Shown here one piece after another: positions 22,330 through 38,366 of a stretch of 64,000 nt of DNA. Position 1 is the first letter of the stretch. Each line of letters opens with the position of its first letter. This DNA is from Deltaproteobacteria bacterium. GTDB taxonomy: Bacteria; Myxococcota; Myxococcia; Myxococcales; Anaeromyxobacteraceae. The position numbers and the translations under genes were made by a program. Where the stretch lies: contig JACRMN010000012.1 of assembly GCA_016214955.1 (NCBI GenBank), forward strand, positions 434,001 through 498,000, in the 5' to 3' direction. The notes under the pieces are model-generated. The model saw only the letters and a program-made list of their open reading frames with translations. It was not told the DNA's origin and searched no databases.

Positions 22330-22680
22330 CTAGAGGCTGCCCACGAGGGCCTTGAGGCGCCGCATGGCGCGGGGCTCGACGCAGTAGCACACGCGCGGCC
22401 CGTCGATGTCGCCGCGGACGAGCCCCGCCCCCCTGAGCACCTCGAGGTGCTGGGAGACGGTGGACTGGGCCAGCGGCAGCTCGTCGACGATGTCGCCGCA
22501 GACGCAGGACTCGCGCCGGGCCAGCAGGCGCAGGATCTGGACGCGGGCCGGGTGGCCCACCGCCTTGGCGAGGAGCGCCAGCTCCTCGTCGGCGGCCTTG
22601 CCCTCGACGGGGCGGAGGTCGGGAGCCTCCCGGGGGGCCGTCACCGGCTCACACGGGCTCTTCCTGAGGGCGCTGGGCAT
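22330..22680 (-). CDS. arsR: ArsR-family winged-helix repressor
   Basis: The 116-residue protein has the ArsR/SmtB fold: [51 protein letters not shown]. The ESCVCGDI part holds the two cysteines of the classical ELCVCDL metalloid-binding site in helix 3, and a further Cys pair occurs in RVCYCVEP, so soft-metal or arsenite sensing is plausible. It is divergent from the thioredoxin/permease cluster, whose promoter contains an inverted repeat. A TAGAAC hexamer ends 7 nt before its ATG. Confidence 0.9.
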
Positions 22681-22785
22681 GGACGAGGTTCTACGATGAG
22701 CGAGGGAGTCTGCGTAACGCGACCGGAGGACCTTGTCGGGCCTTCGCGGTGCGGTGGATGAGGCATCCAGCCCCTTCTCCCGTCC

Positions 22786-22814
22786 TTGCCGTCAAATCGT
22801 CAACATGCGATAAG
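22786..22814 (+). promoter_or_regulatory. Sigma-70 promoter with candidate ArsR operator
   Basis: TTGCCG (22786-22791) and GATAAG (22809-22814) are spaced by 17 nt. Between and over them lies the inverted repeat ATCG-N8-CGAT (22796-22811), where a bound repressor would block polymerase. A second perfect repeat, TGGATG-AGG-CATCCA, is at 22755-22769. Both are candidates only. Confidence 0.4.
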
Positions 22815-22835
22815 CGACCCCCGGGAGGTCGCGGG

Positions 22836-23228
22836 ATGATCTGGAGGACAGCCGGGGTGGTGGCCGTGGTCGCCGCGAGCCTGGCATGGGTCGCGCTGAG
22901 GCGGCCGGCCGCACCGCCGGCGCCCGCCGCGCGGGTGGCAACCGCCCAGGCGGTTCCGCGCCTGGTGGACCTCGGCGCCGGCAAGTGCATCCCCTGCAAG
23001 GCCATGGCGCCCATCCTGGAGGGCCTGCGGGTCGAGTACGCCGGCCGGATGGAGGTGCAGTTCATCGACGTCTGGCAGGACCCCGATGCGGCCAGGCCCT
23101 ACGGCATCCGCATGATCCCCACGCAGATCTTCTACGGCGCCGACGGCAAGGAGCTGGCCCGCCACCAGGGGTTCATGTCGCGCGAGGATATCCTCGCCCA
23201 GTGGCGGGCGGTCGGGGTGAGCCTCTAG
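22836..23228 (+). CDS. Membrane-anchored exported thioredoxin-like protein
   Basis: A 130-residue protein with an N-terminal anchor (residues 2-21, TAGVVAVVAASLAWVAL), a Pro/Ala linker and a thioredoxin domain with active site GKCIPCKAM and the cis-proline loop RMIPTQIFY. The start at 22836 follows CCGGGAGGTCG. It should act on the outer face of the inner membrane as a disulfide reductase fed by the CcdA-like protein encoded 8 bp downstream. Divergent ArsR is the likely regulator. Confidence 0.88.
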   Translation: MIWRTAGVVAVVAASLAWVALRRPAAPPAPAARVATAQAVPRLVDLGAGKCIPCKAMAPILEGLRVEYAGRMEVQFIDVWQDPDAARPYGIRMIPTQIFYGADGKELARHQGFMSREDILAQWRAVGVSL

Positions 23229-23236
23229 GGCCGGCG

Positions 23237-23938
23237 ATGGTCGAGCTGCTCACATCCTTCGGGCGGGCCTTCGAGGCCCCCGCGGCCCTGGCCCTGCCGG
23301 CCGCTCTCCTCTGGGGCGTCCTCTCGGTGGTGCTCTCGCCCTGCCACCTCTCGAGCATCCCGCTCGTCGTGGCCTACATGAGCGGCGGCACGGAGCTCCC
23401 CTCGGGGCGCCGCGCCGTCCTCCTGTCGGGGAGCTTCGCGCTCGGCATCCTCGGGAGCATCGCCGCCGTAGGCGCCATCACGCTCGCCGCGGGCCGCATG
23501 GCGGGCGACGTGGGCCGCGTCGGGAGCTTCCTGCTCGCGGCCGTGTTCTTCGCGGTGGGCTTGAACCTCCTGGGCCTGCTGCCGCTGCCCAGCTGGTCGG
23601 CCGGCCCCACGTCGCCGGGCCGCCGAGGGCCGGCGGGCGCGCTGCTCCTGGGTCTGGTGTTCGGGGCCGCCCTCGGCCCCTGTACCTTCGCCTTCATGGC
23701 GCCGCTGCTCGGGCTGGCCTTCCGGGCCGGGGACGCTAACCTGGCTTTCGGCGCCCTGCTGGTGGCGATGTACGGCCTCGGCCACTCGCTGGCCATCGTG
23801 GCCGCGGGTGCCTCGGCCCAGGGCGTCCAGCGGTGGCTCTCCTGGAGGGCAGGCGCGCGGGCCGCCGTGCTGGTGCGAGGCGGCGCGGGAATCGCCGTCA
23901 TCTTCGGCGGTCTCTACTTCCTCTACACGGCCACCTGA
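23237..23938 (+). CDS. CcdA/DsbD-type electron-transfer membrane protein
   Basis: The 233-residue, six-span protein has the paired helices of the CcdA family: VLSPCHLSSIPLVVAYMSGG and, in the second half, ALGPCTFAFMAPLLGLAF, each with a cysteine beside proline. It transfers electrons from cytoplasmic thioredoxin to exported thioredoxins. The flanking thioredoxin genes (22836 and 25085) are natural partners on the outer and inner faces. Confidence 0.88.
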   Translation: MVELLTSFGRAFEAPAALALPAALLWGVLSVVLSPCHLSSIPLVVAYMSGGTELPSGRRAVLLSGSFALGILGSIAAVGAITLAAGRMAGDVGRVGSFLLAAVFFAVGLNLLGLLPLPSWSAGPTSPGRRGPAGALLLGLVFGAALGPCTFAFMAPLLGLAFRAGDANLAFGALLVAMYGLGHSLAIVAAGASAQGVQRWLSWRAGARAAVLVRGGAGIAVIFGGLYFLYTAT

Positions 23939-23958: not shown

Positions 23959-25071
23959 ATGAGCCGGCCCACCATCGAGAGCGGTACCCCGCCGGCCCCC
24001 TGCTGCGGCGACGCCTGGTCCGGCGTGACGCCCGGCGCGCCGCCCGCGTCCCGCCTGCCCGGGACCCTGGCACTCCTGGCGCTGGCGCTCGCCGCCTGGG
24101 CCGCCGCCTACGCCGCCATCCTCCCGCTGTCGGAGTGGATCACCTTCCGGCTCCTGGGGCTCTCGCCCGGCTCGCGCCTCGGCCAGAGCGTGGCCTTCTT
24201 CCTGTACGACGCCCCCAAGGTGCTGCTGCTCCTCACCCTGGTGGTCTTCCTGGTGGGGATCGTCCGCTCCTTCTTCACCCCGGAGCGGACCCGGGCGCTC
24301 CTGGCGGGCCGCCGCGAGTCGGTGGGCAACGTGCTGGCGGCCGCCCTGGGCATCGTCACCCCCTTCTGCTCCTGCTCGGCGGTGCCCCTCTTCATCGGCT
24401 TCGTCGAGGTGGGCATCCCGCTGGGCGTCACGCTCTCCTTCCTGATCTCGGCGCCCATGGTGAACGAGGTGGCGCTGGTGCTGCTCTTCGGGCTCTTCGG
24501 CTGGAAGGTTGCCGCCCTCTACCTCGCCACCGGCCTCACCATCGCCATCCTGGCCGGCTTCGTGCTGGGGAGGCTGAAGCTGGAGCGGTTCGTGGAGCCG
24601 TGGGTCCACGAGTCGATGCAGGCCGCCGGGGCCACCTACCAGGCCGAGCGGCTCGGCTTCGCCGGGCGGGTGGAGAAGGGGACCGAGGCGGTGCGCGACG
24701 TGGTGGGCAAGGTCTGGCCCTGGGTCCTCCTCGGCATCGCGGTGGGAGCCGGGATCCACGGCTACGTGCCCGAGGGGCTCCTGGCCGGGGTGATGGGCAA
24801 GGCGGCCTGGTGGTCGGTGCCGGTGGCGGTGCTCATCGGCGTGCCCATGTACTCGAACGCCGCCGGCATCATCCCGGTGGTGGAGGCGCTGCTCGGCAAG
24901 GGCGCGGCCCTGGGCACCGTGCTGGCGTTCATGATGTCGGTCATCGCCCTCTCGCTGCCGGAGATGATCATCCTGCGCAAGGTGCTGCGCCCGCCGCTCA
25001 TCGCCGCCTTTGCCGGCGTGGTGGCGGTGGGGATCCTGCTGGTGGGCTGGCTGTTCAACGCGCTGCTCTGA
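23959..25071 (+). CDS. COG0701/ArsP-like permease
   Basis: The 370-residue protein has about eight spans and the family signatures TPFCSCSAVPLFIGF and, in the second half, IGVPMYSNAAGIIPVVEALLGKG. ArsP members export trivalent organoarsenicals; others in this family have unknown substrates. An N-terminal vicinal cysteine pair (PAPCCGDAW) is a possible thiophilic metal site. It lies between a CcdA-like protein and a small thioredoxin, under probable ArsR control, which supports a thiol-reactive substrate. Confidence 0.85.
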   Translation: MSRPTIESGTPPAPCCGDAWSGVTPGAPPASRLPGTLALLALALAAWAAAYAAILPLSEWITFRLLGLSPGSRLGQSVAFFLYDAPKVLLLLTLVVFLVGIVRSFFTPERTRALLAGRRESVGNVLAAALGIVTPFCSCSAVPLFIGFVEVGIPLGVTLSFLISAPMVNEVALVLLFGLFGWKVAALYLATGLTIAILAGFVLGRLKLERFVEPWVHESMQAAGATYQAERLGFAGRVEKGTEAVRDVVGKVWPWVLLGIAVGAGIHGYVPEGLLAGVMGKAAWWSVPVAVLIGVPMYSNAAGIIPVVEALLGKGAALGTVLAFMMSVIALSLPEMIILRKVLRPPLIAAFAGVVAVGILLVGWLFNALL

Positions 25072-25084
25072 GGAGGACAGGGAG

Positions 25085-25318
25085 ATGAGGATCCAGGTGC
25101 TGGGAACCGGTTGCCAGAAGTGCAAGCAGCTCACCGCCAACGCCGAGCAGGCGGTGGCCGAGCTGGCCCTGGGCGCGACGGTCGAGAAGGTGGAGGACCT
25201 CCGCGAGATCATGAAGTTCAGGGTGATGGCCACGCCGGCGCTGGTGGTGGACGGCCAGGTGCGCTCCGCCGGCAAGGTGCTGTCGCCGTCCGAGGTGAAG
25301 AAGGTCCTGGCCGGCTGA
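25085..25318 (+). CDS. Small thioredoxin-fold protein (redox-active disulfide protein 2 type)
   Basis: This 77-residue protein is a minimal thioredoxin fold with GTGCQKCKQL as its CxxC site and VMATPALVVDGQV as the cis-proline loop. It begins 13 bp after the permease with a GAGGAGGACAGGGAG ribosome binding site. Homologues regularly accompany COG0701 permeases. It has no signal, so it should act in the cytoplasm, perhaps reducing the permease cysteines or the CcdA-like protein. Confidence 0.9.
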   Translation: MRIQVLGTGCQKCKQLTANAEQAVAELALGATVEKVEDLREIMKFRVMATPALVVDGQVRSAGKVLSPSEVKKVLAG

Positions 25319-25360: not shown

Positions 25361-26725
<1,365 letters not shown>

Positions 26726-26726
26726 C

Positions 26727-28184
26727 TCAGCGCGGCGGCGGCGTCTCGGCCGGCGGCGCGGCGAGCCCGGGCGGAGCCTCGGGCAGCCAGAGGGTCGCCA
26801 CGGTGCCGCGCCCGGGGAACTCGAAGGAGAGCTCCCCGCCGTTGGCCTCGGCGATGGTGCGGGTGACCGAGAGCCCGAGCCCGGTGCCCTCGCCCTCGGG
26901 CTTGGTGCTGAAGAAGGGGTCGGTCACCCGCTCCCGGATCTCCGGCGGGATGCCGGGCCCGTCGTCCTCCACCGAGACGCCGCAGCGGCCCGGGCGGAGG
27001 CGGAGCCGGAGGCGGATCTCGCCGCCGTCGTGGGTCACGTAGCCGGCGTTGAGGAGCAGGTTGAGCAGCGCCTGGCCCACCTGCTTGCGGTCGGCCAGGG
27101 CCCGGGCGTCGCCGATGCCCTGGGAGACGAGCTGCACGGCGATGCGGCGCTTGCGGAGGATGGGCTCCACGAAGGACATGCCCTCGCGCGCCAGCTCGGC
27201 GAGCCGGACCGCCTCCAGGCGCGCCGGCATCGGGCGGGCGAAGTCCAGCAGCCGCGCCATGACGTGCTCGACCCGCTCCACCCCCTCCTCCATGAGCTCC
27301 AGGTACTCGTCGGCCGTCTCGGGAGGCAGGCGCTCGTGCCGCAGGCGGCGCAGGCAGCTCTTCACCCCCGCGAGCGGGTTGTTGACCTCGTGGGCCACGC
27401 CCGCCACCAGGGAGCCCAGGGCCGCCATCCGCTCGGTGGCCACCGCCTTCTGCCGCGCCCGCTCCTGCTCCTCGTGGGCGGTCCGCAGGCGGAGCATCAT
27501 CTGGTTGAACCGCTCGGCCAATCCGGCGATCTCCAGGCTGCCGCGGGGCCGGACCGGGGCCGGCGCCGCGGCGGGATCGAAGCGGTCGGCGGCCCGCAGC
27601 AGCTCTCCCAGCGGGCTGGCGATGCCCCGCCCCACCACCAGCGCCGCCACCAGGCCTCCGAGGATGACCACCACCGCCAGCAGGCCGAGGAGCGTGGCCA
27701 GGTTGCGCCGGGTGGCGGCCAGGATGGCCATGTCCATCCCCAGCCGCACCTCGCCCGCGGCTCCCCCCAGGATGGGCACGCGAAGGTCGAGGTAGCGCGC
27801 AGCCCCGTCCACCACCACCACCGGACCGTCGTCGGGGCGGGAGAGAGCGGCGAGTGCGGGCGGCGTGCCGTCGGCGAAGGAGGTGGCCACCACCCGCCCC
27901 TCGCGGAGGACGAAGCAGTAGGCCACGCCCTCGCCCGCGGTGGCGCCGGCCACGAGCTCGTTGAGGCTCACGAGGTCCTCCACCAGCAGCGGCTCCGTGG
28001 CCTGGAGCGCGATCTGGCGGGCGATGATGCGCCCCAGGGCGTCCTGCTCGCGCGCCAGGGCGCGGCTGGCGATCCGGTTGGCGAAGACCAGGTGGGCGGC
28101 ATGGGTGAGCACCACGCCCAGCGCGGCGAAGGCCGCCAGTTGCGTCCAGAGCCGCAGGCGCGGCCAGCGCGGCCAGCGGCTCAC
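26727..28184 (-). CDS. Membrane sensor histidine kinase
   Basis: The 485-residue kinase has an N-terminal span (LAAFAALGVVLTHAAHLVF), a periplasmic region of about 135 residues, a second span (TLLGLLAVVVILGGLVAALVV), a HAMP-like linker, the H-box VAGVAHEVNNPLAG and ATPase boxes (LLNLLLNAGY, DDGPGIPPEI, GTGLGLS). GTG 28184 overlaps the stop of the binding-protein gene by 4 bp, so the two are coupled. With that lipoprotein and the NtrC-type regulator it forms a three-part sensing system. Confidence 0.93.
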   Translation of the reverse strand: MSRWPRWPRLRLWTQLAAFAALGVVLTHAAHLVFANRIASRALAREQDALGRIIARQIALQATEPLLVEDLVSLNELVAGATAGEGVAYCFVLREGRVVATSFADGTPPALAALSRPDDGPVVVVDGAARYLDLRVPILGGAAGEVRLGMDMAILAATRRNLATLLGLLAVVVILGGLVAALVVGRGIASPLGELLRAADRFDPAAAPAPVRPRGSLEIAGLAERFNQMMLRLRTAHEEQERARQKAVATERMAALGSLVAGVAHEVNNPLAGVKSCLRRLRHERLPPETADEYLELMEEGVERVEHVMARLLDFARPMPARLEAVRLAELAREGMSFVEPILRKRRIAVQLVSQGIGDARALADRKQVGQALLNLLLNAGYVTHDGGEIRLRLRLRPGRCGVSVEDDGPGIPPEIRERVTDPFFSTKPEGEGTGLGLSVTRTIAEANGGELSFEFPGRGTVATLWLPEAPPGLAAPPAETPPPR

Positions 28185-29107
28185 CGCCGCTGCCCCACCA
28201 CGGCGGCGGCGCTGTCGAAGAGGCCCGGCTCCGGCGGGCCAAAGCGATCGATGCCCACGGCGCGGAGCTGGGCCGCGGCCTCCGGGTCGCGGTGCAGCCC
28301 GAGCAGCACGGCGCGGAGGCGGGCGCGGGTCTCGGCCGGGAGGCGGGTGGCGGCCACCACCGGCATGAGGCCGTAGGCCGGCGAGCGGTGGATGACCCGC
28401 ACCCGCGAGGAGAGCTGCGGGTCGCGGGCCAGCAGCGACTCGTACACCAGGCTGTCCACCGCGGCCCCGTCGGCCAGCCCCCGGGCGACGGCATCGATGG
28501 AGCGATCGTGACTGCGCGTGAATGAGGTGGAGGCGAAATGGTGGCGGGGGTCGAGGCCGAGGCCGCGGAAGAGGCTGCTGGGGTAGAGGTGGCCGGAGAA
28601 GGAGAGCTCGTCGGTGAAGGCGAAGCGCTTGCCGGCCAGATCGGCCGGGGCGGTCGCCGGGCTGGTGGCCGGCACGATGAGGAGCGAGTGGTAGGTGCTC
28701 CGTCCGCCGATGACGGGGACGGCCAGCACCTCGACCGCCCCGGGGTCCCGCGCCAGCAGGTCGAGGTAGCCCCCGGTGCAGACCAGGGCGGCGTCGAGCT
28801 GGCCGGTGAGGAGCAGGTCGTCCACCTCGGCGTAGGTGCGCCGCTGCAGGAAGCGGATCTCGGCGCCGAGGAGGGTGCCCATGCGGTCGAAGAAGCGGGA
28901 GTAGGCGGCGAAGGTGTCCTGCGGCGACTGGATGGCCGCCACCGAGAAGCGAAGCACCGGGCGGGAGGGGCGCTCGGGCCGGCTCTCCGTCCGCGCCGGC
29001 CGGGCGCTCATGTCCACCTCCACCTCGGGATAGGGGCTCTGCGAGCAGGCCAGCGCGGCGCAGAGCGCGCAGGGGGCGGCGAGCCGGGTGGCGGAGCGGA
29101 GGCGCAT
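28181..29107 (-). CDS. PhnD-like periplasmic binding lipoprotein (sensor partner)
   Basis: The 308-residue protein has a basic start and hydrophobic segment ending in LACSQS, a probable lipoprotein site. The mature part matches phosphonate-type binding proteins: FSVAAIQSPQDTFAAYSRFFDRM, TYAEVDDLLLTGQLDAALVCTGGYLDL, LAGKRFAFTDELSFSGHLYPSSLF and GLADGAAVDSLVYESLL. Relatives act as oxyanion receptors for kinases (AioX/ArxX type) or as the input domain of TtrS. A TAGCAT hexamer ends 8 nt before the ATG. No ABC transporter genes are adjacent, favouring sensing over uptake. Confidence 0.85.
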   Translation of the reverse strand: MRLRSATRLAAPCALCAALACSQSPYPEVEVDMSARPARTESRPERPSRPVLRFSVAAIQSPQDTFAAYSRFFDRMGTLLGAEIRFLQRRTYAEVDDLLLTGQLDAALVCTGGYLDLLARDPGAVEVLAVPVIGGRSTYHSLLIVPATSPATAPADLAGKRFAFTDELSFSGHLYPSSLFRGLGLDPRHHFASTSFTRSHDRSIDAVARGLADGAAVDSLVYESLLARDPQLSSRVRVIHRSPAYGLMPVVAATRLPAETRARLRAVLLGLHRDPEAAAQLRAVGIDRFGPPEPGLFDSAAAVVGQRR

Positions 29108-29156
29108 GGCGCCCCATGCTACCCACCGGGCCGGCTCCCGGGCAGGCCCGGTCGGT

Positions 29157-29172
29157 GTTTCCAGAACGAAAC
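29157..29172. promoter_or_regulatory. Enhancer-like site 1 for the NtrC-type regulator
   Basis: GTTTCCAGAACGAAAC is a perfect inverted repeat (GTTTC-N6-GAAAC; flanking T and A extend the arms to 6). It shares the format GTTTCC-N5-G-N-AAC with site 2 and lies about 187 bp before the predicted transcription start. Confidence 0.6.
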
Positions 29173-29200
29173 ATCCGCGCGCACCCGCCCCTGCCGCGCC

Positions 29201-29216
29201 GTTTCCCTCTGGGAAC
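29201..29216. promoter_or_regulatory. Enhancer-like site 2 for the NtrC-type regulator
   Basis: GTTTCCCTCTGGGAAC is a near-perfect inverted repeat whose centre is 44 bp from site 1, about four helical turns, so both sites face the same side of the DNA. It lies about 143 bp before the predicted start of ttrB transcription. Confidence 0.6.
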
Positions 29217-29325
29217 GGTACCGCGTCCCGCCGTCCCTCACCGGCCGAGCCTCGGGTGGGCGCGCGGCGCCAAGCGGGCGCCGCGCCGCGCGAATCCCAT
29301 CGTCGACCTCGGCGGTCGGCTTCCC

Positions 29326-29341
29326 TGGACCCCGGCTTGCT
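29326..29341 (+). promoter_or_regulatory. Sigma-54 -24/-12 promoter for ttrBA
   Basis: TGGACCCCGGCTTGCT contains the invariant GG (29327-29328) and GC (29339-29340) exactly 10 nt apart and a TTGCT -12 half, close to the consensus TGGCAC-N5-TTGCW. The predicted start is near 29352, 45 nt before the ttrB ATG. Confidence 0.75.
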
Positions 29342-29396
29342 AAGGGCCGGGCAGTCCGGGAGCGAGCCGGGCGGAACGACGAACGAGAGGACGTGC

Positions 29397-30143
29397 ATGG
29401 ACACCCTGATCAGGATGCAGGAAGACCTGGAGCGGGCCCTCGAGAAGCCGCCCGAGAAGCGGCGCTGGGCGATGCTGCTCGACGTGCGCAAGTGCGTGGG
29501 CTGCCACGCCTGCACGGTGGCCTGCGCCTCCGAGAACAAGCTCCCGCCCGGCCAGGTGTACCGGCCGGTCTTCGAGTACGAGCGGGGCCAGTACCCCGCC
29601 GTCACCCGCACCTTCCTGCCGCGCCCCTGCATGCAGTGCGACAAGCCTCCGTGCGTGAAGCCGTGCCCCGTGCCCAAGGGCCAGGCCACCCGCAAGGAGA
29701 AGAGGGGTGCCTCGGCGGGGCTGGTGGTCATCGACTACGCCGAGTGCATCGGCTGCGGCCAGTGCGTGGACGCCTGCCCCTACGGCGCACGCGCGGTCGA
29801 CGAGGGGAGGAACCACTCCGACGGCACCCCCGCCCCCCAGCCCTACGAGGTGGCGGCCTCCTTCGAGTACGGCCGCAAGCGGCAGCGGAATGCCAAGGCC
29901 GACCCCGTCGGCAAGGCCCGCAAGTGCCACTTCTGCGTCCACCGGCTGCAGGAGGGGATGCTGCCGCAGTGCATCTCCAGCTGCATCGGCCGCGCCGGCT
30001 ACTTCGGCGACGAGAGCGATCCGAAGAGCCTCATCGCCGAGGTGAAGAAGGCGAGCAAGGTCCAGGTGCTCAAGGCCAGGAAGGGCACGGCGCCGCGCGT
30101 CTACTACGTCGCCAGCGAGAAGCTGGAGGTGATCTATGGCTAA
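29397..30143 (+). CDS. ttrB: TtrB-like iron-sulfur electron-transfer subunit
   Basis: A 248-residue ferredoxin-type subunit with four [4Fe-4S] motif groups: CVGCHACTVAC, CMQCDKPPCVKPCP, CIGCGQCVDACP and CHFCVHRLQEGMLPQCISSC. Both the start (RRWAMLLDVRKCVG) and the end (VQVLKARKGTAPRVYYV) resemble TtrB of tetrathionate reductase. There is no signal peptide, so it would have to ride out with TtrA through the Tat system. An insertion of about 35 residues separates clusters three and four. It overlaps ttrA by 8 bp; the ATG follows GAGAGG. Confidence 0.88.
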   Translation: MDTLIRMQEDLERALEKPPEKRRWAMLLDVRKCVGCHACTVACASENKLPPGQVYRPVFEYERGQYPAVTRTFLPRPCMQCDKPPCVKPCPVPKGQATRKEKRGASAGLVVIDYAECIGCGQCVDACPYGARAVDEGRNHSDGTPAPQPYEVAASFEYGRKRQRNAKADPVGKARKCHFCVHRLQEGMLPQCISSCIGRAGYFGDESDPKSLIAEVKKASKVQVLKARKGTAPRVYYVASEKLEVIYG

Positions 30144-33100
30144 GAAGAACGGTACCTCGCGCCGCGACTTCCTGAAGACCGGTGCCATCGGCTGTGGCGC
30201 GCTCGCCATCTCCCAGCTCGACTTCGCCCGGGGCATCCTGGCCCGGGCCGAGGCCGGGGAGCTCACCGCCAAGGAGCTCTACGAGCTCGCCCAGGTCGAG
30301 AACCAGCTCTTCACCGTCTGCCTGAACTGCAACACCGGGTGCGGCATCAAGGTGAAGATCCTCGACGGCGTCGCCGCCAAGATCGACGGCAGCCCCTACA
30401 GCCCCTGGACGCTCACGCCGCACCTTCCCATGAGCGAGCCCCTGTCCCGGGCCGCCAAGGTCGACGGCGCCATCTGCCCCAAGGGACAGGCTGGCCACCA
30501 GGGAGCCTACGACCCCTACCGCATCCGCAAGGTGCTGAAGCGGGCCGGCAAGCGCGGCGAGGGGAAGTGGCAGAGCATTCCCTTCGACCAGGCCATCGGC
30601 GAGATCGTGAACGGCGGCAAGCTCTTCGCCCAGGTGCCCGGCGAGGAGACGCGCGAGGTGGCGGGCCTGAAGGCCCTCTACGCGCTCAAGGACCCCAAGG
30701 CCTTCGCCGACATGGGCGCCGACGTGGCCGCCCTCCGCAAGAAGAAGATGACCGTGGCCGAGTTCAAGGCCAAGCACGCCGCCCACCTCGACAAGCTCAT
30801 CGATCCCGACCACCCCGACTTCGGCCCCAGGAACAACCAGTTCGTCTACATGTGGGGCCGCAAGAAGGGCGGCCGGTCCGACTTCTCCAAGCGCTTCTAC
30901 GAGGCCTTCGGCACCGCCAACTTCCACGGCCACACCACGGTGTGCCAGGGCTCGCTCTACTTCGCCTGCAAGGCCATGAGCGAGCAGTACGTGGGCGACA
31001 CCTTCAAGGACGGCCAGAAGTTCTACTGGCAGGCCGACCTGGAGAACTCCGAGTACGTGGTCTTCGTGGGCTCGAACCTGTTCGACGCCAACTACGGCCC
31101 GCCCAACCGCACCCCGCGCATCACCCAGCGGCTGGTGGACGGCAAGCTCAAGATCGCGGTGCTCGATCCGCGCTTCTCCAAGCTCGCCTCGCGCGCCCCC
31201 GGGAGCTGGATCCCGGTGAAGCCCGGGACCGACGCCGCCTTCGCCATGGGCATGACCCGCTGGATCCTCGAGAACCAGCGCTTCGACGCCAAGTTCCTGG
31301 CCAACGCCAACAAGGCCGCGGCCGCCGCCGACAAGGAGAGCACCTGGTCGAACGGCGCCTGGCTGGTGAAGCTGGGCAAGGACGGGACCCCGGGCGGCTT
31401 CCTGCGGGCCTCGGAGATCGGGCTCAAGGCCAAGGAGGTCCGCAAGGACAAGGAGGGCAAGGAGTACGACTTCGAGTGGCTGGTGGTCCTCAAGGACGGC
31501 AAGCCGGTCGCCTTCGACCCCAACGACGAGAAGGAAGCGGTGGAGGGCGACCTCTTCGTCGACGCCGAGCTCCCGGCAGACAAGGCCGGAAGCATCCGGG
31601 TGAAGAGCGGCCTTCAGCTCATGAAGGAGGCCGCGCTGGAGAAGACCATCGCGGGGTACGCCGACCTCTGTGGCATCGAGGCCAAGGTGATCGAGGAGGT
31701 GGCCCGCGAGTTCACCTCCCACGGCAAGAAGGCGGCGGTGGACATGCACCGCGGGCCGGCCCAGCACACCAACGGCTTCTACAACATCTCGGCGCTGATG
31801 AGCCTCAACCTCCTGGTCGGGAACTTCGACTGGACTGGCGGGATGATTGCGGCCTCCACCTGGAACACCGACGGCTCCAAGACCGAGAAGCAGCCCTTCC
31901 CCCTGAAGAAGCTCTCGCCCAAGGTCGGGAAGGCCTTCGGCCTCTCCATCATCCGCCACGACGCCAAGTACGAGGAGTCCACCCTCTTCGAGGCGGCCAG
32001 GTACCCGGCCAAGCGCAACTGGTGGCCGCTCTCCTCCGACGTCTACGAGGAGATCCTGCCCTCCATCGCCGACGCCTACCCGTACCCGGCCAAGGCCCTG
32101 TTCTCGTACATGGCGGCTCCGACCTACGCGCTGCCGGCGGGCCACACCAACATCGAGGCGCTCACCGACCTGGAGCGGCTGCCGCTCTACTTCGCGAGCG
32201 ACATCACCATCGGCGTGACCTCCATGTACGCCGACTACCTCTTCCCCGACCTGCACTACCTCGAGCGCTGGGAGTTCCACGGCTCGCACCCCAACATGCC
32301 GGTCAAGGTGCAGCCGGTGCGGCAGCCCGTCATCGCCTCGCCCAACGAGGTGGTGAAGGTCTTCGGCGAGGAGCAGCCCATCTCCTACGAGACCGTCTGG
32401 CTGGCGCTGGCGGAGAAGCTCGGCCTGCCGGGCTTCGGCAAGGATGGCTTCGGGCCCGGCCAGGACTTCTGCCGGCCCGACGATCTCTACGTCCGCATGG
32501 TGGCCAACATCGCCTTCGACGGGAAGGAGCCTGTCGCCGACGCCGGCGCCGAGGACCTGCGCGTCTTCCAGGCGAGCCGCCGCCACCTGCCGAAGAACGT
32601 CTTCGACCAGGGCCGCTGGGAGAAGATCTGCGGCGCTGCCTGGGCCAAGGTGGTGACGGTGCTCTCGCGCGGGGGCCGGTTCGACACCCAGGAGGCCGCC
32701 TACAAGGGCGACCACGTCGCCAACAAGTACGGGAAGCTCATCAACCTGTACCAGGAGAAGACCGCCAAGGCGAAGGACGCCTTCACCGGCAAGCCCTACT
32801 TCGGGGCGGCGCGCTACGTGCCGGTGGTCGACACCCTGGGGCGCGAGCCCACCGCGCTGGCGGAGGGGTTCGACCTGCACCTCATCACGCAGCGCGACGT
32901 GCGCATGACCAAGTCGCGGACCATCACCCACAGCTACCTGACGTCGAGCCTCCCCGAGAACGCCATCCTGGTGAACGGGGCCGACGCCCGACGCCTCGGT
33001 CTCAAGACGGGCTCGAAGGTGAAGGTGGTCTCGGCCACCAACCCGGAGGGCGTCTACGACCTGAAGAACGGGGTGAAGAAGCCGATGGTGGGCGTGGTCC

Positions 33101-33345
33101 AGGTCACCGAGACCATCCGGCCCGGGATCGTCACCTTCACGGTGGGTCACGGCCACTGGGCCACCGGCGCCGCCGACGTCACCATCGACGGCAAGGTGGT
33201 GAGGGGCGACCCGCGGAGGGCGTCCGGCATCCACGCCAATGCTGCCATGTGGATCGACCCGCACCTCAAGAACACCTGCTTCATCGACAAGGTGGGCGGC
33301 AGCGTCTCGTTCTACGACACCCGGGTGAGGCTGGTCCCGGCCTAG
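30136..33345 (+). CDS. ttrA: TtrA-like molybdopterin oxidoreductase catalytic subunit
   Basis: This 1069-residue enzyme has a Tat signal (SRRDFLKTGAIGCGALAIS), an N-terminal [4Fe-4S] site (Cys62, Cys65, Cys69, Cys114) and a probable molybdenum-ligand Cys270 in GHTTVCQGS. GKRGEGKWQSIPFDQAIGEI, FTSHGKKAAV and NGFYN are hallmarks of the tetrathionate reductase TtrA branch. This branch also contains selenate reductases, so the oxyanion is not settled. Genes run B then A as in ttrBCA, but the NrfD-type membrane subunit TtrC is missing. A strong hairpin follows the stop. Confidence 0.9.
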   Translation: MAKKNGTSRRDFLKTGAIGCGALAISQLDFARGILARAEAGELTAKELYELAQVENQLFTVCLNCNTGCGIKVKILDGVAAKIDGSPYSPWTLTPHLPMSEPLSRAAKVDGAICPKGQAGHQGAYDPYRIRKVLKRAGKRGEGKWQSIPFDQAIGEIVNGGKLFAQVPGEETREVAGLKALYALKDPKAFADMGADVAALRKKKMTVAEFKAKHAAHLDKLIDPDHPDFGPRNNQFVYMWGRKKGGRSDFSKRFYEAFGTANFHGHTTVCQGSLYFACKAMSEQYVGDTFKDGQKFYWQADLENSEYVVFVGSNLFDANYGPPNRTPRITQRLVDGKLKIAVLDPRFSKLASRAPGSWIPVKPGTDAAFAMGMTRWILENQRFDAKFLANANKAAAAADKESTWSNGAWLVKLGKDGTPGGFLRASEIGLKAKEVRKDKEGKEYDFEWLVVLKDGKPVAFDPNDEKEAVEGDLFVDAELPADKAGSIRVKSGLQLMKEAALEKTIAGYADLCGIEAKVIEEVAREFTSHGKKAAVDMHRGPAQHTNGFYNISALMSLNLLVGNFDWTGGMIAASTWNTDGSKTEKQPFPLKKLSPKVGKAFGLSIIRHDAKYEESTLFEAARYPAKRNWWPLSSDVYEEILPSIADAYPYPAKALFSYMAAPTYALPAGHTNIEALTDLERLPLYFASDITIGVTSMYADYLFPDLHYLERWEFHGSHPNMPVKVQPVRQPVIASPNEVVKVFGEEQPISYETVWLALAEKLGLPGFGKDGFGPGQDFCRPDDLYVRMVANIAFDGKEPVADAGAEDLRVFQASRRHLPKNVFDQGRWEKICGAAWAKVVTVLSRGGRFDTQEAAYKGDHVANKYGKLINLYQEKTAKAKDAFTGKPYFGAARYVPVVDTLGREPTALAEGFDLHLITQRDVRMTKSRTITHSYLTSSLPENAILVNGADARRLGLKTGSKVKVVSATNPEGVYDLKNGVKKPMVGVVQVTETIRPGIVTFTVGHGHWATGAADVTIDGKVVRGDPRRASGIHANAAMWIDPHLKNTCFIDKVGGSVSFYDTRVRLVPA

Positions 33346-33374: not shown

Positions 33375-33408
33375 GGCGGGCCGGGGGAGAGGTCTCCTCC
33401 GGCCCGCC
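33375..33408 (+). terminator. Strong hairpin terminator after ttrA
   Basis: A 16-bp stem with one G-U pair and a minimal 2-nt apex follows the ttrA stop by about 30 bp. No T run follows. It directly precedes the TACCCT -10 element of the next gene, so it separates the two transcription units. Confidence 0.65.
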
Positions 33409-33423
33409 CTGCTACCCTGGGGC

Positions 33424-33843
33424 ATGCCCTTCCAGGTCCAGAAGCAGGTCCGCTTCGCCCACTGCGATCCGGCCGGCATCGTCTTCTACCCGCGCTACAC
33501 CGCGCTCGTGAACGAGGTGGTGGAGGACTGGTTCGCCGCCGGGCTGGGGGTGGGCTTCCCGGAGCTCCACGAGCAGCGGAGGCTCGGCATCCCGGTGGTG
33601 CGCCTGGAGATGGACTTCCTCGCCACCAGCCGCTACGGCGAGCGGCTCGACTTCACCCTGCGTGTGCGAGAGCTGGGCCGGAGCTCGGCGCTCCTGGAGA
33701 TCGCCGCCGCCTGCGGGGCCGAGCAGCGCGTCCGGGCCCGGCTGAAGGTGGTGCTCATGTCGCTCGCCACCCACAAGGCCGTGCCCTTCGACGACGACTG
33801 GCGGGCGCGGCTGCAGCCCTTCGTCGAGCCGGCCGGCGACTGA
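33424..33843 (+). CDS. Hotdog-fold acyl-CoA thioesterase (4-HBT/YbgC type)
   Basis: The 139-residue protein has the catalytic signature FAHCDPAGIVFYPRYTALVNEVVEDWF near its N-terminus, matching 4-hydroxybenzoyl-CoA thioesterase-type enzymes that hydrolyse acyl- or aroyl-CoA; the Asp is the expected catalytic residue. Full length for the family. TACCCT ends 5 nt before its ATG with no ribosome binding site, suggesting a leaderless mRNA independent of ttrBA. The substrate cannot be told. Confidence 0.88.
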   Translation: MPFQVQKQVRFAHCDPAGIVFYPRYTALVNEVVEDWFAAGLGVGFPELHEQRRLGIPVVRLEMDFLATSRYGERLDFTLRVRELGRSSALLEIAAACGAEQRVRARLKVVLMSLATHKAVPFDDDWRARLQPFVEPAGD

Positions 33844-33989
33844 CCGGGAACCCCCGCGCCCGCCGGAACCCGAAAGGGCCCGGGGCCGTGACCGCGGCCG
33901 GAGGTCTGTGCTCTGCTGCGGCCCCTGGCTCCCGTCCTTCCCGCGCCGAGGCCGTCCCCCCGGCCCGCGCCCCTCCGGAGGTGCACCCC

Positions 33990-34943
33990 ATGAGGAAGCT
34001 CTTCGCCGTCGCCCTGGCCCTGGCCGTCTCGCCGGCGTTCGCCCAGCAGACGCCGGTCCGCCTCTCGATCGCCACCGGCGGCACCGGCGGCGTCTACTAC
34101 CCCCTCGGCGGCGGCATGGCCGCAATGCTCTCCAGGACCATCCCGGGCGTCGAGGCCACCGCCGAGGTGACGAGCGCCTCGGTGGACAACGTCAAGCTGG
34201 TGGCTGCGGGCAAGGCCGACATCGCCTTCGTCCTCGGAGACACCGCCGCCGAGGGCTTCGCCGGCACCGGCAAGTTCAAGGAGAAGGCGCCCATCCGCGC
34301 CATCGCCGTGCTCTACGCCAACAAGGGGCAGTGGGTCACGGTGGAGGGCACCGGCGTGGAGAAGATGCAGGACCTGAAGGGCCGGCGCATCGCCACCGGC
34401 GCGCCCGGCTCCGGCACCGAGATCATCGCCATCCGCACCCTGGAGGCCTACGGCCTCGACCCCGACAAGGACGTGAAGCGCGAGAAGCTCTCGGTGGCCG
34501 AGTCGGTCAACGCCCTCAAGGACCGCAAGATCGACGCCTTCTTCTGGTCGGGCGGCGTGCCCACCGCCGCCGTCACCGACCTGGGCGCCACCCCGGGCGT
34601 GAAGATCAAGCTCATCGACCACGCCGACGGCGTGCCCGCCATGGTGAAGAAGTACGGCCCGCTCTACGTGAAGGGCACCATTCCCGCCAGGTCCTACCCG
34701 GGCCAGACCAGGGAAGCGGCCGTGGCCGACGTGTGGAACGTGCTCCTGGTCCACGAGAAGATGGACGAGAAGCTGGTCCACGACGTGGTGAAGGCCGTCT
34801 TCGAGAAGAAGGCCGACCTGGTGGCGGTGCACGCGGAGGCCCAGAACCTGGACCTGGCGGTCCAGCTCCAGGGCGGCTCGCCCATCCCCTTCCACCCCGG
34901 GGCACTGCGCTACTTCGCCGAGAAGGGCGTGAAGGGCAAGTAG
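33990..34943 (+). CDS. TAXI-family TRAP transporter solute-binding protein
   Basis: The 317-residue protein has a signal peptide (residues 1-18, KLFAVALALAVSPAFAQ) and the TAXI hallmarks LSIATGGTGGVYYPLGGGMA, TSASVDNVKLVAAGKADIAFVLGD and ATGAPGSGTEIIAIRTLEAYGL. It captures a small solute for the fused permease at 35430; known TAXI ligands include glutamate and other organic acids. The start follows a GGAGGTG ribosome binding site. The DUF1850 gene overlaps its stop by 1 bp. Confidence 0.93.
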   Translation: MRKLFAVALALAVSPAFAQQTPVRLSIATGGTGGVYYPLGGGMAAMLSRTIPGVEATAEVTSASVDNVKLVAAGKADIAFVLGDTAAEGFAGTGKFKEKAPIRAIAVLYANKGQWVTVEGTGVEKMQDLKGRRIATGAPGSGTEIIAIRTLEAYGLDPDKDVKREKLSVAESVNALKDRKIDAFFWSGGVPTAAVTDLGATPGVKIKLIDHADGVPAMVKKYGPLYVKGTIPARSYPGQTREAAVADVWNVLLVHEKMDEKLVHDVVKAVFEKKADLVAVHAEAQNLDLAVQLQGGSPIPFHPGALRYFAEKGVKGK

Positions 34944-35413
34944 TGGTGGGCCGGGCCCTGCGCCTCCCCGCCCTGGCCGGCATCGTCGCACTGCTGGCTG
35001 GCCTGTGGCCGGTGGAGGGGCTGGAGATCGAGAACGCCGCCCGCAAGGGGCGCTGGCGCCTGGCGCTGCCCTCGGGCGGCGCCTTCGCCATCACCTCGCA
35101 CCACTCCATGTACGAGCAGCCCTACACCGAGCGCTTCGCCGTGGACGGCGAGGGGCACATTTTGCTGCGCGAGGTCTCGAGCCCCAGCGCCGCCGTGCGC
35201 GAGTACCTGGGCATCACCGGGCCGGGCGAGCGCCACCCGGCCTCGCGGGTGCTGCCGGAGCTGGTGCTGCGGGTGGCCGCCGGCGAGGCGCAGGAGCTGA
35301 CCATCGGCGACAGGGCGCGCTCGCTGCTGGGCTACGGGGCTCACGGCGACCGGCTGGTGCTGCGCGCCGTCCGCCGGCCCATGCTGGCCCGTCTCCTCCC
35401 CGGCGGTCCCTGA
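34943..35413 (+). CDS. DUF1850 protein of the TRAP-TAXI operon
   Basis: Of 156 residues, the first ~22 form a signal or anchor, and the rest contains LPSGGAFAITSHHSMYEQPYTERFAVD and RARSLLGYGAHGDRLVL, typical of DUF1850, a family found almost only between TAXI binding protein and permease genes. Start may be GTG 34943 (1-bp overlap with the previous stop) or the next GTG at 34946. Its role in transport is unknown. Confidence 0.85.
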   Translation: MVGRALRLPALAGIVALLAGLWPVEGLEIENAARKGRWRLALPSGGAFAITSHHSMYEQPYTERFAVDGEGHILLREVSSPSAAVREYLGITGPGERHPASRVLPELVLRVAAGEAQELTIGDRARSLLGYGAHGDRLVLRAVRRPMLARLLPGGP

Positions 35414-35429
35414 ATCGCGAAAGGAAGCC

Positions 35430-37421
35430 ATGGCCGAGACCGAGCAGCAGCCCGCCCCCGCCGAGGTGGTCGTCGACGAGGAGGCCCGCCGCAAGGCCGA
35501 GGAGTTCGTCGAGGAGGAGGAGGGGGCCACCAGCCACCACCAGGGCTGGCTCGCCCGGTTCCTCACCGTGACCGCGGTGGTGATGACGGCGTTCCACCTC
35601 TACGCCGCCTACGCCATCGTCCCGCAGCAGATCCTCCGGGCCATCCACCTGGGGTTCGTGCTCTTCCTCAGCTACCTGCTCTTCCCGGCGCTCAAGCGGC
35701 TGCGCCACAAGCTCCAGTGGTGGGACGTGGGGCTGGCGCTGCTCTCGCTGGCGGTCATCGGCTGGATGCTCGTCGACTTCGACGACTTCATCGAGCGGGC
35801 CGTCACCCCCAACCGCTGGGACATGTTCTTCGGCGTGGCCCTCGTCCTGCTGGTGCTGGAGGCCACCCGGCGCACCTCGGGCCTGGTCCTCACCCTGGTG
35901 GTGACGCTGTTCCTGGTCTACGCCTTCGTCGGCCCCTGGCTGCCGGCCCCCTGGACCCACCGCGGCTACGACCTGGAGCGGCTGGTGGGCCACATGTACA
36001 TGACGCTGGAGGGGATCTTCGGCTCGGCCATCGACGTCTCGGCCACCTTCATCATCCTCTTCACCATCTACGGCGCGGTGCTGCAGCACTCCGGCGCCGG
36101 CGAGTTCTTCATCGACTTCTCCTTCGCCGCCACCGGCGGCAAGCGGGCCGCCGCCGGCCGCACCATCGTGCTCTCCTCGTTCCTGCTGGGCGGCCCCTCG
36201 GGCAGCGGCGTGGCCACCACCGTCACGCTGGGCTCGGTGGCCTGGCCCATGCTGGCGCGCGCCGGCTACGGGAAGGAGCAGGCCGGCGGCCTGCTGGCCG
36301 CGGGCGGCCTCGGCGCCATCATCTCGCCCCCGGTGCTGGGGGCGGCGGCCTTCCTCATCGCCGAGTTCCTGAAGATCTCCTACATGGACGTGATCTGGAT
36401 GGCGACCATCCCGACCGTCCTCTACTACCTGGCCCTCTTCCTGATGGTGGAGCTGGACGCCGCCAAGCTGGGCATGAAGGAGGTGGCCGTCGAGCGCCGG
36501 GAGAGCCTGTGGCAGATGGCCAAGGGGCGCGGCTTCCACTTCCTCTCGCTGGTGGCCATCGTCCTCTTCATGGTGGCCGGCTTCAGCCCCATCATCGCCG
36601 TCTTCTGGGCCATCGTGCTGGCGGCGGCGCTCTCCTTCCTGCGCAGGGACACGGCGCTCACCTTCTGGCCCACGCCCGGCACGCCCTTGCTGCAGACCAA
36701 GATGGTGAAGGCCCTGGCCGGTGGCTCGCTGGGGGTGCTCAACGTGGCCGCCACCTGCGCCTCGGCCGGCATCATCGTGGGCGTGGTGACGCTCACCGGC
36801 CTGGGGCTCAAGTTCAGCTCCATCGTCATCGACCTGGCCGGCAGCAACCTGGCGCTCACCGCCATCTACACCGGGCTGGTGGTCTGGGTGGTGGGCCTGG
36901 CCGTGCCGGTGACCGCCAGCTACATCATCTGCGCCGTCATCGCCGCGCCGGCCCTCACCAAGCTGGGCGTGCCAGACTACGCCGCCCACATGTTCATCTT
37001 CTACTACGCGGTGCTCTCCGAGGTGTCGCCGCCCACCGCGCTCTCGCCGTTCGCCGCCGCCGCCATCACCGGCGGCGATCCCTACCGGACGACGCTGCAG
37101 TCCTGGAAGTACACGCTGCCCGCGTTCCTGGTGCCCTTCGCCTTCGTGCTCGAGAAGGACGGCGCCGGCCTGCTCCTCAAGGGCAGCGCCTGGGGAGTGG
37201 TCCACACCGCCGCCACCGCGGTGGTGGGCATCGCCGCCCTGGCCTTCGGCGTCCAGGGCTGGATGTTTCGCCGCACCACCGCCCTGGAGCGAGTAGCGCT
37301 CATCGCCGCCGGCCTGCTGCTGGTATACCCGTCCACGGTCGCCGACGTCGCCGGCGTGGGGCTGGTGGCGGCGGTGGCGCTGTGGCAGTGGAGCGGCAAG
37401 CGGCGGGCCCTGCCCGCCTGA
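35430..37421 (+). CDS. TRAP transporter permease, fused small and large membrane subunits
   Basis: The 663-residue protein has an acidic cytoplasmic head, about four spans of the DctQ-like region, then the DctM-like large subunit with GGPSGSGVATTVTLGS, the GGLGAIISPPVLGAAAFLIAEF motif and SEVSPPTALSPFAAAAITGGDPYRT near the end. It uses an ion gradient to drive uptake of the solute bound by the TAXI protein. The extra C-terminal spans (ALIAAGLLLVYPSTVADV) are normal for this type. Confidence 0.93.
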   Translation: MAETEQQPAPAEVVVDEEARRKAEEFVEEEEGATSHHQGWLARFLTVTAVVMTAFHLYAAYAIVPQQILRAIHLGFVLFLSYLLFPALKRLRHKLQWWDVGLALLSLAVIGWMLVDFDDFIERAVTPNRWDMFFGVALVLLVLEATRRTSGLVLTLVVTLFLVYAFVGPWLPAPWTHRGYDLERLVGHMYMTLEGIFGSAIDVSATFIILFTIYGAVLQHSGAGEFFIDFSFAATGGKRAAAGRTIVLSSFLLGGPSGSGVATTVTLGSVAWPMLARAGYGKEQAGGLLAAGGLGAIISPPVLGAAAFLIAEFLKISYMDVIWMATIPTVLYYLALFLMVELDAAKLGMKEVAVERRESLWQMAKGRGFHFLSLVAIVLFMVAGFSPIIAVFWAIVLAAALSFLRRDTALTFWPTPGTPLLQTKMVKALAGGSLGVLNVAATCASAGIIVGVVTLTGLGLKFSSIVIDLAGSNLALTAIYTGLVVWVVGLAVPVTASYIICAVIAAPALTKLGVPDYAAHMFIFYYAVLSEVSPPTALSPFAAAAITGGDPYRTTLQSWKYTLPAFLVPFAFVLEKDGAGLLLKGSAWGVVHTAATAVVGIAALAFGVQGWMFRRTTALERVALIAAGLLLVYPSTVADVAGVGLVAAVALWQWSGKRRALPA

Positions 37422-37433
37422 CGAGGAGGACCC

Positions 37434-38366
37434 ATGTCTCCCGCGGAACGCGCACCCCGGCCCGCCGGCGTGCTGGCGCCGGTGCTCACCCCCTTCGGCG
37501 CCGATCTGGCGCCCGACGCCGGCCGCCTGCTGCGCCACTGCCGCTGGCTCCTGGCCCAGGGCTGCGCCGGCCTGGCGGTGTTCGGCACCACCAGCGAGGC
37601 CAACTCGCTCTCGGTGGAGGAGAAGGAGGCGCTGCTCGACGCGCTCGTCGAGGGCGGGATCGATCCCTCCCGGCTCCTGCCCGGCACCGGGGCCTGCGCC
37701 CTCACCGACGCGGTGCGGCTCACCCGGCGCGCGGTGCAGCGCGGCTGCGCCGGGGTGCTGATGCTGCCGCCCTTCTACTACAAGGCGGTGAGCGAGGACG
37801 GCCTCTTCCGCAGCTTCGCCGAGGTCATCGAGCGGGTGGGGGACGATCGACTGCGAGTGTACCTGTACCACATCCCCCCGGTGGCCCAGGTGCCCATCGG
37901 GCCGGGCCTCATCGAGCGGCTGCTGCGGGCCTACCCGAAGGCCGTGGCCGGCATCAAGGACTCGAGCGGCGACTGGAACAACACCCGCATGCTCCTCGAC
38001 GGGTTCGCCGCCCGGGGCTTCGACGTCTTCGCCGGCAGCGAGCGCTTCCTGCTCGACAACCTGCGCGGCGGCGGCGCGGGCTGCATCACCGCCACTGCCA
38101 ACGTGAACCCGGGGGCCATCGCCCGGCTGGCGCGGGAGTGGCGCGGCCCCGAGGCCGACGCCCAGCAGGCCGGGCTCAACGCGGTGCGCGGTGCGGTGGA
38201 GAAGGTGCCGGTCATCGCCGGGCTCAAGGAGATCGTGGCCCACCACGCCGCCGACCCGGCCTGGCGCACGGTGCGGCCGCCGCTCTCCGGCCTCGCGCCG
38301 GCCCAGGCCGAGGGGCTGCTGTCCTCCCTGGCGGCGCTGGGCTTTTCCATGCCGGGGCTCCGGTAA
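37434..38366 (+). CDS. DapA-family class I aldolase/lyase
   Basis: A 310-residue TIM-barrel enzyme with the Schiff-base lysine in VAGIKDSSGDWNN, the catalytic tyrosine in YLYHIPPVAQVPIG and the GTTSEANSLSVEEK segment at the substrate carboxylate site. The family includes dihydrodipicolinate synthase, N-acetylneuraminate lyase and 2-keto-3-deoxy-sugar acid aldolases. Linkage 12 bp after the TRAP permease suggests it acts on the transported organic acid rather than in lysine synthesis. Its stop codon is inside the predicted -35 of the next gene. Confidence 0.88.
   Translation: MSPAERAPRPAGVLAPVLTPFGADLAPDAGRLLRHCRWLLAQGCAGLAVFGTTSEANSLSVEEKEALLDALVEGGIDPSRLLPGTGACALTDAVRLTRRAVQRGCAGVLMLPPFYYKAVSEDGLFRSFAEVIERVGDDRLRVYLYHIPPVAQVPIGPGLIERLLRAYPKAVAGIKDSSGDWNNTRMLLDGFAARGFDVFAGSERFLLDNLRGGGAGCITATANVNPGAIARLAREWRGPEADAQQAGLNAVRGAVEKVPVIAGLKEIVAHHAADPAWRTVRPPLSGLAPAQAEGLLSSLAALGFSMPGLR

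Follow-up and report, generated by a model that had tools for sequence, protein, structure and literature searches.

How does a Ttr-like reductase obtain its electrons, and which oxyanion does it reduce, when no quinol dehydrogenase is encoded beside it? The question is raised by two overlapping genes, here termed B and A, at positions 29397-33345 of a 64,000-nucleotide stretch of DNA (hereafter the window; contig JACRMN010000012.1, positions 434,001 to 498,000) from a Deltaproteobacteria bacterium of the family Anaeromyxobacteraceae (assembly GCA_016214955.1). Taken together, the sequence data incline us, on balance, towards a periplasmic respiratory oxyanion reductase that lacks an NrfD-type subunit, is fed by a small cytochrome c7 and reduces arsenate.

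The B-A gene pair and its position outside TtrA

The genes and the hairpin that follows them are:

29397..30143, + strand: B, electron-transfer subunit, 248 amino acids, with four [4Fe-4S]-type Cys motifs and 16 Cys
30136..33345, + strand: A, molybdopterin catalytic subunit exported by twin-arginine translocation (Tat), 1069 amino acids, presumed molybdenum (Mo) ligand Cys270
33375..33408, + strand: 15-bp hairpin after A, possible transcript end, without a T tract (z -1.8)

Both reading frames are intact, share 8 bases and stand in the B-then-A order of the original prediction. A is a molybdopterin oxidoreductase with an N-terminal [4Fe-4S] domain, a Tat signal (TIGR01409, 22.8 bits against an NCBIfam cut-off of 16.7), the signatures HTTVCQGSLYF and HRGPAQHTNG, and a cysteine, C270, that aligns with the Mo-ligand Cys of its relatives. 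B begins with MDTLIRMQEDLERALEKPPEKRRWAML, and since its RR pair (residues 22-23) is not followed by a hydrophobic stretch, no signal peptide was seen by eye, in agreement with what had been noted before. The G+C content of the B-A segment (67.9%, compared with 74.7% in the window) fits acquisition from outside. A terminator had been placed directly after the enzyme, but a consensus scan after A found none, leaving only the hairpin.

The TtrB/TtrA hallmarks originally ascribed to the pair were not confirmed as stated: TtrA and TtrB were the best-scoring NCBIfam models for A and B, but both scores fell far below the cut-offs (A against NF011567, TtrA: 474.6 bits, cut-off 1750; B against NF011569, TtrB: 172.9 bits, cut-off 416). 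A likewise failed the ArrA model NF041714 (106.3 bits, cut-off 1600), and the gene order is B-A rather than A-B. We took 79 of at least 580 loci from a family scan of genome contigs (52-87% identity to A), added Geobacterales rows from a further genome search (L177, L178, L180-L185), omitted A fragments below 850 amino acids (e.g. L126), and built trees of 105 and 71 rows using two tree programs. The window's A was placed in a 33-row clade (support 99 by both programs; 32 of the 33 in the 71-row tree), while TtrA-type rows (L044, L046, L047 and L052) formed a separate group (support 99). A TtrA-like enzyme with its own NrfD from a genome of the same bacterial family (G004; 928 bits) also grouped with TtrA and not with the window. 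Membership of the Ttr branch had been claimed with phylogeny as its test, and the phylogeny puts A outside TtrA. On this sequence evidence A and B should not be called a "tetrathionate reductase", and the enzyme is part of a clade that adjoins TtrA but lies outside it.

Comparison with Salmonella-type TtrBCA (L047) gives the same picture. B precedes A in both, the Mo subunit is Tat-exported with a Cys ligand and B has four clusters, but the window enzyme is only 30-34% identical, falls in a separate clade, lacks TtrC and has other active-site signatures. TtrB is described as carrying a Tat signal (Duval 2008, PMC2500031), unlike the window's B, which has none visible. Among plasmid records the nearest relatives of A were 30-33% identical, and the six inspected were all BCA operons, including a typical TtrBCA. 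A distant BCA relative on an enterobacterial plasmid, from Citrobacter freundii (L042, 32%), lies amid ars operon genes, and a similar match occurs on a Citrobacter arsenatis plasmid.

The active-site signatures delimit the wider family. HTTxCQGSLYF, which flanks the Mo-ligand Cys, was found in 90/92 family rows and HRGxxQHTNG, a second site, in 87/92, with each in 0/11 outside rows; the patterns were derived from 26 of the scored sequences. Clade members share both with the wider family, as does the window's A, and both are missing from the ArrA of Geobacter sp. OR-1 and from a PSR-like enzyme. Among the matches listed, the family spans many phyla and includes the named isolates Geobacter sp. 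OR-1, Anaeromyxobacter oryzisoli, Thermus arciformis, Carboxydocella thermautotrophica and Desulfosporosinus sp. SRJS8. MoaA- and MoeA-like genes, named by eye, recur near family loci.

The same fold is found in ArrAB (6cz7), to which an AlphaFold model of A (mean predicted local distance difference test score 79.8) aligned with Z 27.5 and a root-mean-square deviation of 2.9 over 707 residues. Nonetheless, A differs from ArrA (6cz7; OR-1 ArrA, L160) in sequence (24% identity), in gene order, A preceding B in ArrAB, and in the active-site signature, which is not common to the two. PcrA and ArrA ranked top in Foldseek, and acetylene hydratase (Z 29.1), PsrA (28.3), PcrA (28.2) and ArrA nearly tied in fold comparison, which was therefore uninformative as a guide to substrate.

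Absence of the NrfD-type anchor

The lack of TtrC in the operon, pointed out by the original prediction, extends to the contig. The genome comprises 5.3 Mb in 30 contigs and is 96% complete, and NrfD (PF03916) had 7 matches genome-wide, with none on the 963-kb contig that carries B-A (C26). As the window lies within that contig, an assembly artefact behind the absence of NrfD or c7 genes was rejected. The genome search for an orphan NrfD/TtrC that had been called for was also run. The NrfD of a relative's operon, used as query, gave one weak match (30 bits), so that no dedicated TtrC homologue was found elsewhere in the genome, and an orphan TtrC was rejected, given that the 7 NrfD matches belong to other complexes as judged from neighbouring open reading frames, heme motifs and transmembrane counts. 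By reading of their neighbours these were assigned to ACIII-like, hydrogenase-like, PSR-like molybdoenzyme, iron-sulfur (FeS)-NrfD and Cbc-like sets.

Operons across the trees were scored by hidden Markov models and heme motifs, with NrfD counted as operonic when on the same strand and at most 3 kb before A. Operonic NrfD occurred in 0/33 clade rows, while the sister group had B-NrfD-A in 12/13. Two loci (L095, L109) have an NrfD on the opposite strand adjoining a separate B match, and a third (L097) has an additional BCA operon. Given that the anchor is absent clade-wide and retained in the sister group, its absence is, on these trees, an old and heritable state of the clade, which includes Anaeromyxobacteraceae, Geobacterales, Nitrospirota, Desulfobulbaceae and Caldimicrobium. 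Exchange of the anchor is not unique to this clade, since the BA/BCA state requires about 11 changes over the whole tree. One Geobacterales contig (G221, C1) carries two B-A copies about 10 kb apart (L177 and L178; 77% and 69% identical to the window's A).

Enzymes of this kind without an anchor are already in print, namely TtrAB without TtrC in the relevant passages of PMC9751629 and anchor-less Arr and Unk operons in those of PMC2500031. The former describe TtrAB clusters in Desulfobulbus propionicus, Caldimicrobium thiodismutans, Desulfoluna, Desulfosarcina, Desulfuromusa and Dissulfuribacter, which resemble the window operon in having no C gene beside A and B; our clade likewise contains loci of Caldimicrobium and Desulfobulbaceae. 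Unlike in our clade, no cytochrome partner is reported for these clusters in those passages (PMC9751629). ArrAB is stated to occur without an NrfD-type subunit as well (PMC2500031), and the "Unk" BCA/BA clade of Duval et al. 2008 (PMC2500031), as described there, shares the BA order and has some anchor-less members, although A in the anchor-less subgroup lacks Tat and B is 60 kDa, whereas the window's A has Tat and its B has 248 amino acids. A novel lineage sister to TtrA, SrdA and alternative ArrA is also known from the part of PMC10100899 that treats it.

Cytochrome c7 as candidate electron donor

Genes directly upstream of B were scorable in 29 of the 33 clade rows, contig ends cutting off the others (L086, L089, L094, L098). 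A triheme c7, scored as a small gene directly before B with exactly three CXXCH motifs, was present in 20, another multiheme gene in 4 and none in 5. The cytochrome c7 domain (PF14522) matched 3/3 upstream genes tested. Pairwise distances of c7 and A co-varied over 20 loci (Mantel r 0.67; 0/2000 permutations as high), which shows shared inheritance. Because 20 of the 29 scorable members have a triheme c7 directly before B, a periplasmic cytochrome is the likely electron donor to B; of the two sources originally proposed, this one gains support, and a TtrC encoded elsewhere (the single 30-bit match) does not. We found no link between a window-type enzyme and cytochrome c7 in the literature searched, which left subscription papers outside its scope.

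The window is one of the five rows without a multiheme gene; the others are A. oryzisoli (L083) and three Geobacterales loci (L178, L183, L184). In the closest relative among the matches listed (L048, 87% identical in A), the c7 gene lies between a PhnD-like gene and B, at the position that in the window is occupied by a gap:

29108..29396: 289 bases between the PhnD-like gene and B; c7 gene here in close relatives L048/L081 and L049

A hidden or decayed c7 in this gap was rejected, with no heme motif or remnant and a best tblastn E of 1.2, and the six frames of 20001-42000 contained no CXXCH other than those of B itself. The window copy might accordingly be read as an orphan that lost its c7 partner and ceased to respire, with neither c7 nor NrfD near B-A. 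We regard this as extremely unlikely, as both frames are intact with catalytic signatures retained, a linked multiheme gene is missing from four further clade members too, and the genome has 22 c7-type matches. Under the c7-fed reading, another c7-type cytochrome of this set would be expected to serve, because the dedicated gene is absent beside the enzyme.

The genomic c7 nearest to that of L048 (44%) belongs to a cluster on contig C3 (G000, L014 5938-11136) that encodes an FeS protein, NrfD, two H-protein-like small membrane proteins, the triheme c7, a 9-heme cytochrome and a cytochrome b. It is plausible from its gene content that this cluster is a quinol-to-cytochrome module, for which it would be unusual.

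The proposed route would start with a general quinol:cytochrome module elsewhere that oxidises menaquinol. A small c7-type cytochrome would then deliver electrons to B, with its four [4Fe-4S] clusters, a subunit that A may carry out through the Tat system; from there they would reach the molybdenum bis-pyranopterin guanine dinucleotide (Mo-bisPGD) in A, where arsenate would be reduced to arsenite that adjoining resistance genes may help to handle. We tentatively suggest, though with less than even confidence, that the clade was rewired from an NrfD quinol dehydrogenase to a soluble triheme c7, which would tie reduction of arsenate or a related compound to the metal-oxide periplasmic cytochrome pool of Geobacter and Anaeromyxobacter, and that the window's lineage went further and draws on the shared pool without a dedicated partner.

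Arsenate and other candidate substrates

Arsenic genes (Acr3, ArsD, ArsC, ArsP, ArsE) were found near 12/34 clade loci, compared with 9/56 other family loci and 0/15 control loci. Upstream of the window's B-A are genes for an ArsR-type regulator, an ArsE-type thioredoxin and an ArsP_1 permease. Anaeromyxobacter sp. PSR-1 reportedly respires arsenate without arrAB, and Muramatsu et al. 2020 are said to have proposed a TtrA homologue as its dissimilatory arsenate reductase. A genome that matches this strain (G016; PMC4432346) encodes two TtrA-family enzymes and no more, both on contig C340: a c7-B-A copy that is 78% identical to the window's A and in the same clade, with the c7 gene before B that the window lacks, and an NrfD-B-A copy that is 55% identical. 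The two operons stand in tandem (L049), separated by a ferredoxin-type gene and PhnD-like and kinase genes, with an ars cluster near. That arsD-arsC-uspA-acr3-arsR-arsM-like cluster encodes ArsD, a low-molecular-weight-phosphatase-type ArsC, Usp, an Acr3-like SBF-family transporter, ArsR and a methyltransferase. A search of 11 genomes, including that of the window, gave no ArrA at E 1e-100; the ArrA model does find Geobacter OR-1 ArrA (1007 bits). Since arsenic genes recur, the genome matching PSR-1 has a 78% identical orthologue and ArrA was not found in the window's genome, arsenate is most likely the substrate of A, judging by gene content and relationship. Of the tetrathionate, selenate or related oxyanion originally suggested, the wider choice of selenate or a related oxyanion stands, with arsenate now best supported, and the Ttr assignment does not.

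Several points weigh against this reading, besides the absence of a c7 gene beside the operons of the window and four other clade members. No arsenic gene was seen in the surrounding DNA examined at 22/34 clade loci, and the PSR-1 proposal could concern either copy, the 78% c7-B-A or the 55% C-B-A. Geobacter OR-1 has a true ArrA plus a window-type enzyme, which thus need not be its arsenate reductase, and sulfur-disproportionating lineages (Caldimicrobium, Desulfobulbaceae) fall within the clade.

These points bear on two other substrate assignments. An enzyme that reduces some other metalloid or chalcogen oxyanion, such as antimonate or selenate, could use the same c7-fed route, and we consider it unlikely. 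Wells and colleagues (PMC10100899) treat TtrA, SrdA (a selenate reductase) and an alternative arsenate reductase as one catalytically versatile family, the Acr3- and ArsR-type neighbours suit antimony as well as arsenic, and OR-1 has an ArrA already. However, no orthologue (best match 37 bits) is present in a genome matching Geobacter sp. SVR (G272), the strain with the published antimonate reductase AnrA, and the SrdA sequence is absent from our tree. AnrA was accordingly rejected as an orthologue, conditional on G272 being SVR (PMC8032467), and the window enzyme is probably not SVR's AnrA.

The second would be a sulfur-compound enzyme that reduces tetrathionate or catalyses one step in the disproportionation of thiosulfate. 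It would account for the top NCBIfam models and the disproportionating lineages in the clade, and passages of PMC9751629 describe TtrAB without TtrC in D. propionicus and C. thiodismutans, as well as Ttr-type proteins made during thiosulfate disproportionation. The tree position of A, active-site signatures unlike those of TtrA and the recurring arsenic genes argue the other way, and the same source, citing Muramatsu 2020 on PSR-1, states that a sequence of the tetrathionate reductase type may serve in dissimilatory As(V) reduction and lacks tetrathionate reductase activity (PMC9751629), so that we judge a sulfur substrate quite improbable and retain arsenate as the favoured one.

Neighbouring genes and regulation

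The features upstream of B are:

29325..29341, + strand: sigma-54-like promoter site CTGGACCCCGGCTTGCT, 55 bases before B; weak alone
28181..29107, - strand: PhnD-like (PF12974) lipoprotein-type binding protein, divergent from B
26727..28184, - strand: sensor histidine kinase (HAMP, HisKA, HATPase_c)
25361..26725, + strand: NtrC-type sigma-54-activating response regulator
25085..25318, + strand: MTH895/ArsE-type small thioredoxin, above the NCBIfam cut-off
23959..25071, + strand: ArsP_1-family permease (PF03773)
23225..23938, + strand: DsbD/CcdA-like membrane protein, PF02683 just under the cut-off
22749..23228, + strand: thioredoxin-like protein
22330..22680, - strand: ArsR/SmtB-type metalloregulator, above the NCBIfam cut-off

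We would expect the enzyme to be expressed under control of the PhnD-like periplasmic sensor, the histidine kinase and the sigma-54 regulator. The promoter-like site in the window was matched by 10-12% of shuffles, and sites scoring at least 18 occurred at 6/12 loci with the regulator compared with 7/67 without (Fisher p = 0.003), which is no more than suggestive of a sigma-54 promoter before B.

PhnD-like sensing upstream is a feature shared with TtrBCA, where the sensor is TtrS. Together with the kinase and the sigma-54 regulator, the PhnD-like protein also recalls the AioXSR/ArxXSR sets of arsenite oxidases, which would suit an enzyme that ran in the oxidative direction, with arsenite or another donor oxidised and electrons passed to c7, a carrier that could accept them. 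The reductive role proposed for the PSR-1 homologue and the mere 24% identity of A to ArrA make this very improbable, and we keep to the reductive, c7-fed reading.

On the 3' side of A (33424-38366) lie a thioesterase-like gene, a TAXI-type receptor, a fused TRAP permease (TIGR02123) and a DapA/aldolase-like gene; L013 holds another TAXI/TRAP-like set. At four loci (L103, L177, L178, L180) A is adjoined by a methyl-accepting chemotaxis-like protein together with a PstS-like binding protein, as if the cell also swims to its substrate, and in A. oryzisoli (L083) a PhnD-like protein is paired with a methyl-accepting chemotaxis-like protein.

Significance

Arsenate respiration mobilises groundwater arsenic and is looked for by way of its marker gene, arrA. 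If it is true that the clade respires arsenate, surveys of arrA overlook this capacity in Anaeromyxobacteraceae, Geobacterales, Nitrospirota, Desulfobulbaceae and others. An exchange of NrfD for c7 would also alter the energetics of the reaction, because electrons would come via periplasmic cytochromes and not straight from quinol, and would account for Ttr-like enzymes without TtrC.

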